NCBI RefSeq assembly: GCF_029436685.1
Contig: NZ_JAROCY010000006.1
Span: forward strand, 62,001 to 126,000
Direction: 5' to 3'
Source of the DNA: Novosphingobium cyanobacteriorum
GTDB lineage: Bacteria; Pseudomonadota; Alphaproteobacteria; Sphingomonadales; Sphingomonadaceae
DNA: 64,000 nt
In this document: positions 14,702-40,263 of the stretch, one piece after another
Position numbering within the stretch: position 1 is the first letter of the stretch
How the letters are laid out: each line of letters starts with the position of its first letter
Position numbers and translations under genes: made by a program
Notes under the pieces: generated by a model
Database searches by the model: none
What the model was told of the DNA's origin: nothing
Seen by the model: only the letters and a program-made list of their open reading frames with translations

Positions 14702-15000
14702 GGAGCCGGCTTACCCCGCCAGCCCAATCCTGTCAGGCGGCGCGTAACGTCCGTGCCATAACGGATCAGGACGGGCAGAACCGATTGCGCTTGCGAATCA
14801 GACCATATTGATCCACTATTGCTTCTGCGGGACCGGGCCCCTCTGGCGCGGCGGTGCGATCATGGATTGCACGCCACGTGATGTCGGACCGCATCGGGTG
14901 TTTGCCGATGCTGCCGGTCCGGGTCCTCTCCCCCCACTCCCCGGCACGGACCAGAGCATTAGCGCACCCGATCGAACGCAACGTTCTGATCGAGGAGCAT
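14702..15000. other. Gene-free region upstream of the YdcH-type gene
   Basis: No convincing coding frame is seen in these 299 nt. GGTCCG (about 14917-14922) and CGGACC (about 14947-14952) can pair around a very C-rich loop containing CCTCTCCCCCCACTCC. That gives a possible structured 5' leader for the gene at 15001. No T-run follows. Confidence 0.35.
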
Positions 15001-37687: not shown

Positions 37688-38857
37688 ATGCAAAACCTCA
37701 GCACCGCGCTCTCGCGCATCCAGCCCTCGCGCACCAATGCGATGACCGACCGCGCCATCGAACTGCGCGCCCAAGGGCGTGACATCATCTCGCTTTCAGT
37801 GGGTGAGCCCGATTTCCCCACGCCCGATCACGTCAAGCAGGCTGCCAAGGACGCGCTCGACGCCAATGACACGCGGTACACCGCCGTGGTCGGCACAGCA
37901 GCGCTGCGCGATGCGGCGGCGCTGCACTTCCGCCGCGATCTCGGCCTCGTGGTCGATCCCGCCAACGTGATCGTCAGCGCGGGTGGCAAGCAGGCGATCT
38001 TCCTCGCGCTCTGCGCCACGCTCGATCCGGGTGACGAGGTGCTGGTCCCATCGCCCTGGTGGGTCAGCTACCCCGAGATCGTGCGCTTCGCCGGCGGCAC
38101 GGTGGTGGATCTGCCCACCACCGCCGAGGGCGGCTTCCGCCTCTCCGCCACCCAGCTCGAAGCGGCGATCACCCCCGCCACCCGCTGGCTCCTGCTCAAC
38201 AGCCCGGGCAACCCCACCGGCGCGACCTATCCAGCGGAAGAACTGCGCGCCTTGGGCGAAGTGCTGCGTCGCCACCCCCGCGTGCTGGTGCTCAGCGACG
38301 ATATCTACGCGCCGCTGCGCTATACCCCCGGCACCCACGCCACACTGGCGGTGGAATGCCCGGATCTTGCCGACCGCATACTCACCGTCTCGGGCGTATC
38401 GAAAAGCCACGCGATGACCGGCTTCCGCATCGGCGTCTCCGCGGGCCCCGCCTGGCTGGTGGGCGCCATGGGCAAGCTGCAGAGCCACGCCTCGGGCAAT
38501 CCCTGCTCTATCAGCCAGGCCGCCGCCGTCGCCGCCTTCACCGGCCCGCAGGAATTCCTGGCCGATTGGCGTGAACGCTTCCGCGTTCGGCGTGATCTCT
38601 GCGTCGATGCGGTGCGGGCCATCCCCGGCCTGTCCACCCCGGTGCCCGATGGCGCGTTCTACCTGATGATCGACGCCGCGCCGTTGATGCCGCGCTTCGG
38701 CGATGACGAGGCGCTCGCGCTGCACCTGCTCGAACATGGCGTCGCCGTCGTCGCCGCTTCGGCCTTCGGCGGGCGCGATGGCTTCCGCATTTCCTTCGCC
38801 GCCGACGATGCCCGGCTGACCGAAGCCTTCCATCGCATCGCCAAGGCGCTCACATGA
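37688..38857 (+). CDS. Class I pyridoxal-phosphate aminotransferase (aspartate type)
   Basis: The 389-residue protein belongs to fold-type I aminotransferase subgroup I-gamma. It has LSVGEPDFPTPDHV near the start, SAGGKQAIFLALCATLDPGDEVLVPSPWWVSYPE, NSPGNPTGATYP, and the PLP lysine K239 in SGVSKSHAMTGFRIG; the C-terminal arginine lies in GRDGFRISFA. Aspartate or prephenate is the usual substrate. It lies between pabBC and an RluA-type gene, overlapping the latter by 4 nt (ATGA), so the three form an operon. Confidence 0.93.
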   Translation: MQNLSTALSRIQPSRTNAMTDRAIELRAQGRDIISLSVGEPDFPTPDHVKQAAKDALDANDTRYTAVVGTAALRDAAALHFRRDLGLVVDPANVIVSAGGKQAIFLALCATLDPGDEVLVPSPWWVSYPEIVRFAGGTVVDLPTTAEGGFRLSATQLEAAITPATRWLLLNSPGNPTGATYPAEELRALGEVLRRHPRVLVLSDDIYAPLRYTPGTHATLAVECPDLADRILTVSGVSKSHAMTGFRIGVSAGPAWLVGAMGKLQSHASGNPCSISQAAAVAAFTGPQEFLADWRERFRVRRDLCVDAVRAIPGLSTPVPDGAFYLMIDAAPLMPRFGDDEALALHLLEHGVAVVAASAFGGRDGFRISFAADDARLTEAFHRIAKALT

Positions 38858-39528
38858 TCGATTTCGACATCCTGTTCGAAGATGGCGAGGCTCTGGTGAT
38901 AGACAAGCCCGCCGGCCTGCCGCTCGACCAGCCTCGCGCGGGTGGCCCCTCGCTCGAAGACTGGCTCGACGAACTGCGCTTCGGCTTTCAGCGTCCGCCT
39001 GCCCCGGTCCACCGGCTCGACCGCGACACTTCGGGCTGCCTGCTCCTCGCCCGCAATCCCAAGGCGCTGAAGCGCTTTTCGGGAGCGTTTGAGGCGCGGG
39101 AGGTGACCAAGGTCTATCTCGGCGTCGTCGCGGGCGATGTGGCCGGTGAATCCGGCACGATCGACCTCGCGCTCAGCAAGATCAGCAGCGCCGAAGCGGG
39201 CTGGCGGATGATCCCGGCCAAGAAGGGCAAGCCCGCCCTCACCCGCTGGAAAGTCCTCGATCGCAAGGACGGCCTCACCCTTGTCGAGTTTCGCCCCGAA
39301 ACCGGTCGCACCCACCAGATTCGCATCCACGCCCTCGCCGGCCTCGGCCACGCGCTGATGGGCGATCCCATCTACGGCGACGGCAAGGGCGCCCAAAATG
39401 GCAAAATGGGGCGGACGATGCTCCACGCCTCGGCGCTCACCGTCCCCCGCGAAGGCAAGGCCCCGATCACCGCCACCGCCGCGCTGCCGGCAGACATCGC
39501 CGCTCTTGGGTTCGATCTGCCCGCCTGA
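38854..39528 (+). CDS. RluA-family RNA pseudouridine synthase
   Basis: The 224-residue protein has the RluA/RluC catalytic fold without an S4 domain. The catalytic aspartate is D56 in VHRLDRDTSGCLLLARN, followed by KVYLGVVAGDV and EFRPETGRTHQIRIHALAGLGHALMGDPIYG. It isomerises uridines in rRNA or tRNA; the target is not predictable, but its size fits RluA rather than RluD. It overlaps the aminotransferase by four nt. After its stop lies a palindromic repeat and a minus-strand sRNA candidate. Confidence 0.92.
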   Translation: MIDFDILFEDGEALVIDKPAGLPLDQPRAGGPSLEDWLDELRFGFQRPPAPVHRLDRDTSGCLLLARNPKALKRFSGAFEAREVTKVYLGVVAGDVAGESGTIDLALSKISSAEAGWRMIPAKKGKPALTRWKVLDRKDGLTLVEFRPETGRTHQIRIHALAGLGHALMGDPIYGDGKGAQNGKMGRTMLHASALTVPREGKAPITATAALPADIAALGFDLPA

Positions 39529-39538
39529 TCTTGCGTAC

Positions 39539-39612
39539 ACCCCCATCCCCAGCGGGGAGGGGCGCGAGACTTGCCGAACCGCAGGTTCGCTAGTCGCAGC
39601 GGGGTGGGGGTT
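39539..39612. repeat. Nested palindromic intergenic repeat
   Basis: ACCCCCATCCCC (39539-39550) pairs imperfectly with GGGGTGGGGGTT (39601-39612). Between them GAACC (39576-39580) and GGTTC (39584-39588) form an inner hairpin. This two-level palindrome is typical of small intergenic repeats common in sphingomonad genomes; it may terminate the pabBC operon. Confidence 0.7.
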
Positions 39613-39654
39613 CTACGCCAGCAGGCAAACGACCCACCTGGCCCCCACACCCGC

Positions 39655-39683
39655 AAAAAAAGGGCCGGTCCGAAGACCAGCCC
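39655..39683 (-). terminator. UUCG intrinsic terminator, minus strand
   Basis: GGGCTGGTC, loop TTCG and GACCGGCCC form a 9-bp stem (one G-U pair) directly followed by seven T on the minus strand. It is the best intrinsic terminator in the window and has no annotated minus-strand gene to terminate other than the sRNA candidate. Confidence 0.85.
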
Positions 39684-39751
39684 TGGAAAGTTTGGGAGAG
39701 GATGCCTGAAAGGCCCGTCCCTTGTGCACTGCATCATGAGATTGTGCAAGT
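39655..39751 (-). ncRNA. Candidate trans-acting small RNA, minus strand
   Basis: On the minus strand a promoter-like pair (TTGTGC, 17 nt, TACTAT) ends at 39757 and a transcript of about 97 nt would run to a textbook terminator. The terminator stem GGGCTGGTC/GACCGGCCC with a UUCG loop (39683-39662) is followed by seven U (39661-39655). A 5' hairpin can form from CTTGCAC and GTGCACAAG (39750-39721 region), and an unpaired CCTCTCCC (39701-39694) resembles the anti-Shine-Dalgarno loops of alphaproteobacterial sRNAs. No open frame of note overlaps it. The 5' end is approximate. Confidence 0.6.
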
Positions 39752-39756
39752 GCGAA

Positions 39757-39785
39757 ATAGTACGATCCGGTTGCATCTGGCACAA
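39757..39785 (-). promoter_or_regulatory. Minus-strand sigma-70-like promoter of the sRNA candidate
   Basis: Read on the minus strand, -35 TTGTGC (39785-39780) and -10 TACTAT (39762-39757) are separated by exactly 17 nt. The -10 matches 5 of 6 consensus bases and the -35 matches 3 of 6 (TTG). It points into the UUCG-terminated region. Confidence 0.55.
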
Positions 39786-39837: not shown

Positions 39838-40263
39838 ATGGTCGCGATCCCCGTCACCCGCTCGATCTTTATTGACAGCGACGAGCTGGTGGAGAGTTTC
39901 GCGCGCGCTTCAGGCGCCGGTGGCCAGCATGTGAACACCACAGACAGCGCCGTCATGCTCCGCTTCGATGTCGCCGCCTCGCCCGGCCTGCCCGATCCGG
40001 TCAAGCATCGCCTCGCCCAACTCGCCGGCTCACGCATGACGCGCGAAGGGGTCCTTGTCCTGCGCAGCGAAGGCTCGCGTTCGCAGCTGCTCAATCGCCA
40101 GGAAGTGCGCGATCGCCTGTTCGAGCTGATCCGCGAGGCGACCGTGGTGCCCAAGAAGCGCAAGCCCACGCGCCCCACCAAGGCCTCGCAAGCCCGCCGC
40201 GTCGACGCCAAGGCCCGCCGTGGCTCCGTCAAGGCCGGCCGCGGCAAGGTGAAGCTGGACTAA
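39838..40263 (+). CDS. arfB: Alternative ribosome-rescue factor ArfB (peptidyl-tRNA hydrolase)
   Basis: The 141-residue protein frees stalled ribosomes by hydrolysing peptidyl-tRNA. The catalytic G28-G29-Q30 lies in ASGAGGQHVNTTDSAVML, with flanks like release factor domain 3. The C-terminal tail is strongly basic (KKRKPTRPTKASQARRVDAK), as needed to enter the empty mRNA channel. Length matches YaeJ/ArfB. It is monocistronic. No strong Shine-Dalgarno sequence precedes ATG 39838. Confidence 0.95.
   Translation: MVAIPVTRSIFIDSDELVESFARASGAGGQHVNTTDSAVMLRFDVAASPGLPDPVKHRLAQLAGSRMTREGVLVLRSEGSRSQLLNRQEVRDRLFELIREATVVPKKRKPTRPTKASQARRVDAKARRGSVKAGRGKVKLD

Follow-up and report, generated by a model that had tools for sequence, protein, structure and literature searches.

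The first description of the RF00519 element presented it as a non-coding RNA in several copies, with a putative promoter and terminator of its own and without fixed neighbours (PMC1273637), and three suhB RNAs are listed in a published Novosphingobium genome (PMC4059872). Among sphingomonads, SuhB of Sphingopyxis granuli TFA has the same name and probably belongs to the same family. It is a trans-acting, Hfq-dependent RNA tied to carbon status and polyhydroxybutyrate (PHB), PHB granules have a positive effect on its transcription, and thnR is its target; a promoter dyad, a LysR regulator, a PhaR box and an antisense leader go unmentioned in the available text of that source (PMC6563040). MmgR of Sinorhizobium meliloti is likewise an RF00519 RNA and has a PhaR/AniA site in its promoter (PMC8401924, PMC12542648). 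PhaR of S. meliloti was shown by EMSA to bind the promoter of mmgR (PMC12542648), a gene that it represses (PMC12542648, PMC8401924), and NtrC also takes part (PMC8401924, PMC12542648).

Several sibling alphaR8 sRNAs, SisA-D, are found in Caulobacter crescentus, and the G/A-rich sponge RNA CrfA pairs with the alphaR8 core, which is quoted as the 10-mer UUUCCUCCCU (PMC12559287). Covering of ribosome-binding sites has been reported for SuhB and SisA and is thought to apply to MmgR (PMC6563040, PMC12559287, PMC8401924). A functional parallel is the LysR-type regulator VtlR/LsrB, which activates AbcR sRNA and small-protein genes and whose gene, lsrB, adjoins abcR1/2; AbcR is a different sRNA family (PMC7486931, PMC8844928). 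In this study, we analysed an sRNA gene on the minus strand of a 64,000-nucleotide stretch of Novosphingobium cyanobacteriorum DNA, hereafter the window.

Results

Family Membership and Fold

An Rfam scan of the window gave two curated matches in all, one of which was RF00519 (suhB, now MmgR; alphaR8) on the minus strand at 39721-39647. Its score of 45.2 bits exceeded the curated gathering cut-off of 41. From the match, the fold and the reported 61-nt SuhB, the SuhB/MmgR (alphaR8) sRNA was placed at 39655-39721 (minus strand). A first-pass annotation had proposed a minus-strand sRNA gene of alphaproteobacterial kind here without naming the family, and the RF00519 match and the terminator covariation described below agree with that proposal. 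Its statement that this strand has no protein gene also held, as only mechanical ORFs overlap, for example a 291-aa frame that extends antisense across both neighbours. Elsewhere in the window, the terC RNA (RF03067) matched at 14825-14896 on the plus strand with 54.3 bits. Two minus-strand ORFs about 0.47 kb apart flank this match, and since the next ORF is RecQ-like by reading, it is not obviously placed before a terC gene.

Five RF00519 matches were found in the same genome (E <= 0.001), four over the cut-off and one below it (36.7 bits). The window sRNA is therefore one of five copies, in contrast to SuhB of S. granuli and to MmgR, the sole copy in S. meliloti (PMC12559287), and the presence of several siblings resembles SisA-D. 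The match under the cut-off is on a 17.7-kb contig (L005, G000:C32) beside a single-strand binding protein gene (PF00436) and is possibly plasmid- or element-borne. With the Rfam model, RF00519 was present in 117 of 119 genus genomes, with up to 12 matches per genome, and in 135 of 147 genomes of the order (over the cut-off in 120). Two of 14 control genomes, Caulobacter vibrioides and Thermus composti, had a match, which was over the cut-off in one. Judged by its sequence, the window sRNA is real and not new in kind, a further member of a known family.

Sibling copies were collected from 142 loci of the bacterial family (94 from the genus and 48 from other genera), which were the best-scoring rows and not a random sample. 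Searched with a motif that tolerated five substitutions, 140 of the 142 loci (all but L260 and L261) yielded one copy or more, for a total of 156 copies, 154 of them distinct. Three parts of the RNA were recognized by comparing these copies and by predicted folding. The 5' hairpin GCCU-UUC-AGGC (39704-39714, minus) is near-invariant in the 154 distinct copies. It is followed on the minus strand by the unpaired, anti-Shine-Dalgarno-like pairing core AUCCUCUCCC (39694-39703, minus), and the RNA ends in an intrinsic terminator (39655-39684, minus) with a 10-pair stem and UUCG loop at 39684-39661 and a U tract, T to 39655. A 5' hairpin, an unpaired core and a Rho-independent terminator are the structural marks of alphaR8, and the window sRNA has them by predicted fold and terminator covariation. 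The first-pass annotation had given the letters CCTCTCCC at 39701-39694, which are as it claimed, and a UUCG-capped terminator of nine pairs, which is present with ten. Its overall picture of a 5' hairpin, an unpaired CCUCUCCC of anti-Shine-Dalgarno type and an own terminator is in line with the predicted fold and the RF00519 alignment.

The fold of the 62-nt core RNA (39716-39655) reached a z-score of -3.1, with one of 200 shuffles as good, and left the core unpaired. The fold of an 88-nt form barely beat its shuffles (z -1.3, 21 of 200 as good), and the terminator by itself was ordinary (one found against a shuffle mean of 0.5, sd 0.8). For covariation, 60 copies picked for diversity out of 147 distinct sRNA segments were aligned and analysed with RNAalifold. 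The consensus had three hairpin pairs and ten terminator pairs. Two-sided changes that keep pairing were found in 9 of these 13 predicted pairs, all within the terminator (9 of its 10 pairs), and broken or gapped rows reached up to 17 of 60 at the innermost terminator pair. Two of the hairpin pairs were invariant over the 60 rows and the third was U-G in five. Because the hairpin hardly varies, covariation is silent on it, for or against. The compensatory stem changes that the first-pass annotation named as support are present in the terminator.

AUCCUCUCC was found in 154 of 154 distinct copies and the last C of the core in 134 of 154, a conservation of hairpin and core that is partly by construction, since the copies were picked by the motif. 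The core of the window sRNA is AUCCUCUCCC and not the alphaR8 10-mer. Loci of the order outside the bacterial family carried UUUCCUCCCU in 21 of 22 cases by script, and in the 22nd (L123, other strand) by eye. As the exact 10-mer is not required for an RF00519 score over the cut-off, the difference in the core marks a sub-type.

A Promoter Common to Sibling Copies

Across the 156 copies, three upstream blocks were conserved, each with constant spacing to the hairpin: TTGC-N7-GCAA at -71 to -57, TTTCGCACTTGCACAA at -43 to -28 and CATA at -12 to -9. The sequence in between and outside was poorly conserved. With two mismatches or fewer, the dyad was present in 147 of 156 copies, the box (TTTCGCACTTGC) in 144 and both in 138. 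In the window, all on the minus strand, the distal dyad is TTGTGCCAGATGCAA (39771-39785; family form TTGC-N7-GCAA), a candidate LysR-type (T-N11-A) site with one mismatch whose centre lies 64 nt before the hairpin. The proximal box TTTCGCACTTGCACAA (39742-39757) overlaps the -35 element TTGCAC (39744-39749; footprint columns -35 to -30), which is 17 nt from the -10 element CACAAG (39721-39726; columns -12 to -7). The family form of the latter is CATA followed by C or T, and in the window its third letter is C instead of T, a variant seen in 26 of 154 copies. With one dyad mismatch and CACAAG for CATA, the elements of the window copy are weaker than in most siblings.

The better promoter for the window sRNA would be TTGCAC (39749-39744)-N17-CACAAG (39726-39721), and the predicted start from this conserved pair is about 30-35 nt further in than that of the first-pass annotation. 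We predict a mature RNA of about 62-67 nt, with its 5' end at 39721-39716 and its 3' end in the U tract. The length of S. granuli SuhB, 61 nt (PMC6563040), agrees with a start near the hairpin. A strict sigma-70 consensus scan had no match, even at this accepted promoter, and is therefore uninformative.

The dyad and box at fixed spacing, with three mismatches or fewer, occurred at six places in the own genome, compared with none for a reversed-pattern control; five are the sRNA copies and one is another place, described below. Among order loci outside the bacterial family, 21 of 22 could be scored by script, with the box in none and an exact dyad within 120 nt in one. Since the box is absent and the dyad rare outside the bacterial family, its copies form a sub-type with their own promoter. 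According to the text available (PMC12559287), the sisA-D promoters have no common motif, unlike the promoters sampled in this family.

PhaR-Type Box over the -10 Element

A PhaR/AniA-type box, TGCAGTGCACAA (39722-39733, minus), lies over the -10 element and follows the motif TGCRNYGCA. Within it, TGCAGTGCA at 39733-39725 is a palindrome of the YGCRNYGCR type that characterizes the PhaR/AniA regulon, an assignment based on positional enrichment. TGCRNYGCA had 34 matches in 31 of 156 promoters, compared with a mean of 2.0 and a maximum of 7 in 500 column-composition shuffles. The motif covers the -10 element in 25 of the 156, counting the window's own. The copies are related by kinship and not independent events; their inner letters differ and the palindrome stays. 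All four siblings in the own genome lack a strict PhaR-type box over the -10 element. The genome has a PhaR gene (PF07879 and PF05233), and the same motif occurs once upstream of this phaR. Two PhaR-type boxes were also observed between phaC (PF07167) and a phasin gene (PF09361; L295 1504-1565, G000:C12). The box over the -10 element suggests that a carbon-storage sensor controls the window copy: PhaR would repress it, and stored PHB granules would draw PhaR away and release it.

The phasin mRNA was also considered as a target. Its pairing with the sRNA core was -19.6 kcal/mol, compared with a mean of -20.2 kcal/mol for 70 ORF starts. As this is no better than ordinary ORF starts, the link between MmgR and phasin known from S. 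meliloti (PMC8401924, PMC12542648) is unsupported in this genome.

History of the Window Copy and Alternative Readings

Two plus-strand genes flank the sRNA gene without being part of it: one encodes a pseudouridine synthase of the RluA type (38854-39528; PF00849), the other (39838-40263; PF00472) an ArfB-like protein with an RF-1 domain, which we take to be ArfB. The ArfB protein was found in 13 of 154 genus genomes (E <= 1e-40), own included, and in the 12 others no sRNA copy was present at the arfB locus, taken as about 1.5 kb to either side or as far as the contig reached. Closer inspection of seven of the 12 showed the RluA-ArfB order, separated by a short gap, in three. A further ArfB scan of genome contigs gave few close matches and was kept out of the synteny comparison. 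Because the 12 ArfB relatives lack a copy, the window copy is lineage-specific at this place. The conservation that the first-pass annotation expected among relatives keeping the flanking genes thus fails at the site itself; elsewhere in relatives, promoter, hairpin and terminator are conserved in the sRNA copies. The closest relative in the sample was L208, from another genome, which has a similarly altered dyad (left half) and a PhaR-type box. Beside the sRNA gene, at 39538-39615, is a GC-rich inverted-repeat element (CCCCCATCCCC ... GGGGTGGGGG), possibly REP-like; the inverted-repeat pattern tried had no second copy within the window.

A lineage-specific site, a mismatched dyad, a CACAAG -10 element and the sibling copies elsewhere in the genome could also mean that the window copy is a duplicate in decay with hardly any transcription, and that the siblings alone act. 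We consider this unlikely, because hairpin, core and terminator are intact, the box, the spacing and the PhaR-type box are kept, and L208 has the changed left dyad half as well as the PhaR-type box, so that the sub-type persists.

Very improbable is the transcript of about 97 nt that the first-pass annotation had derived from a promoter TTGTGC-N17-TACTAT. Both hexamers are present as it gave them (39785-39780 and 39762-39757, 17 nt apart), but a TACTAT-like hexamer (at least five of six letters) occupies that position in only 2 of 156 copies, the window's included. TTGTGC is the left half of the conserved dyad, the two hexamers fall at -71 and -48, and a 97-nt transcript would contain the conserved -35, box and -10 (39751-39722). 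The length has to be revised to the 62-67 nt predicted from the conserved promoter. That the RNA belongs to SorY, SorX or a similar CU-rich family and not to alphaR8 is scarcely credible, since SorY (21.4 bits) and SorX (14 bits) do score on the same stretch but stay far under their gathering cut-offs of 111 and 46.6 while RF00519 exceeds its own, and sbrA and a betaproteobacterial family also scored under theirs.

The best explanation overall is, with good probability, a lineage-specific extra copy of the trans-acting sRNA SuhB/MmgR (alphaR8), whose control we infer in part. Family membership, terminator, 5' hairpin and unpaired anti-Shine-Dalgarno-like core are backed by the letters themselves, and so are the promoter architecture common to the siblings and the PhaR-type box over the -10 element.

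Candidate LysR-Type Activator

The promoter of this SuhB/MmgR copy has a T-N11-A dyad near -65 and a box near -35, as in LysR-regulated promoters, in which -65 is the usual place of the site. A LysR gene adjoins the sRNA in 12 loci, all of other genera (12 of 48), and in all 12 it is divergent from the sRNA with the dyad region between them. On a plasmid of Sphingomonas parapaucimobilis (NZ_CP155751.1), the gene order is CDC48, RF00519 RNA and LysR gene. Shared ancestry of one locus could explain the arrangement, and the divergent LysR gene is therefore a lead and not proof.

None of the 94 genus loci had a LysR gene beside the sRNA (1.5-2 kb flanks). One LysR match was found in each of the 100 genus genomes searched (E <= 1e-45; 48-58% identical). 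The match of the own genome is at G000:C34:70004-70870 (L356 1501-2367), and no dyad was present in the 114 nt before this gene. The protein is GcvA-like yet under the GcvA cut-off (181.8 vs 288 bits), and one solved chain was found for it at E <= 1e-10, that of GcvA (8y6u). Comparison with relatives suggests that a GcvA-like LysR-type activator controls the sRNA. The housekeeping sigma factor would transcribe from TTGCAC-N17-CACAAG, and the GcvA-like LysR would activate at the upstream dyad.

In enterobacteria, a GcvA-type LysR gene is transcribed divergently from the sRNA gene GcvB. The likeness to GcvA/GcvB lies in the divergent LysR-sRNA arrangement; GcvB is not known to be an RF00519 RNA, and the LysR here stays under the GcvA cut-off. 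Compared with the VtlR/LsrB system, the site also differs, the VtlR box being GCAT-N3-TG-N3-T and the dyad here TTGC-N7-GCAA (PMC7486931, PMC8844928).

An Antisense Leader under the Same Promoter

The sixth place with dyad and box in the own genome (G000:C56:26167 onward; L041 1500-1748) lies about 36 kb before the window. Here the promoter is followed by a leader, near-antisense to the sRNA core, and then by a 27-codon ORF with an AGGAGG site. Rfam found nothing on the leader up to E = 1, and this place is not an sRNA copy. Leader-like DNA was present in 33 of 60 genus genomes, own included. The set analysed had 31 leaders, 30 of the 33 and L338 from a protein search; L339-L341 were left out. 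An exact TTGC-N7-GCAA was upstream in 30 of the 31 and the full dyad and box (strict pattern) in 20.

Pairing of the leader with the sRNA core reached -26.8 kcal/mol or lower in 21 of 31 and -32 kcal/mol or lower in 15. The full promoter accompanied 18 of the 21 pairing leaders vs 2 of the 10 non-pairing ones, and 12 of 25 leaders reached a shuffle z-score of -3. As background, random 115-nt pieces of the window reached -32 kcal/mol in 15 of 1997 cases, and among 70 ORF starts of the window, some surely spurious, one reached -32 and six reached -27. Since the background reaches the same energies, a single leader makes a weak case. The weight of the pairing would lie in the fact that it recurs, immediately before the ribosome-binding site and in several versions of the sequence, among 31 leaders that are kin by descent.

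A search of the own genome for ungapped antisense sites (three mismatches or fewer in 20) returned the five sRNA genes and nothing else; the antisense site of the leader needs a gap. The leader's own fold was ordinary (z -0.5). The 27-aa ORF had no NCBIfam match and was matched in 5 of 119 genomes of the family, own included (E <= 0.01), with a short query that makes the search insensitive. The leader could be the strongest target of the sRNA, a titrating sponge, or both. In pairing with the alphaR8 core it is like the G/A-rich CrfA of Caulobacter (PMC12559287). Unlike CrfA, the candidate sponge is an mRNA leader under an sRNA-type promoter and pairs over about 20 nt, 5' hairpin included.

Discussion

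Like its described relatives, the window sRNA would mask ribosome-binding sites through AUCCUCUCCC and with the help of Hfq. In the own genome, GGGAGAGG occurred 2-12 nt before an ATG at 37 places, compared with 4 for the reversed pattern. Purine-rich Shine-Dalgarno sequences alone give such an excess, and for this reason no target list is claimed.

In the literature, surveyed at the level of titles and abstract openings and without the primary SuhB paper, we found no description of a shared promoter, a LysR link or the leader. On comparative grounds, we regard three things as new leads: the regulon suggested by the promoter, the sub-class with the PhaR-type box and the antisense leader. It is possible, though rather doubtful as a whole, that the SuhB/MmgR siblings of the bacterial family make up one GcvA-like LysR regulon with a leader titration circuit and a PhaR-box sub-class. 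If this is true, the LysR protein in the genus also drives the mRNA of a 27-residue hydrophobic protein with a leader near-antisense to the invariant sibling core, and a titration circuit is built in, made up of the regulator, the sRNAs and the sponge (or super-target). The PhaR-box sub-class, window copy included, would then report stored carbon.

In alphaproteobacteria, including sphingomonads that degrade pollutants, SuhB/MmgR-type RNAs connect translation with carbon storage and catabolite repression. The Caulobacter siblings have unrelated promoters, whereas the copies sampled here have a common promoter, together with a putative activator, a possible sponge and, in a sub-class, an operator linked to PHB. 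Together, these features would be relevant to the question of why as many as a dozen RF00519 matches are retained in some of these genomes.
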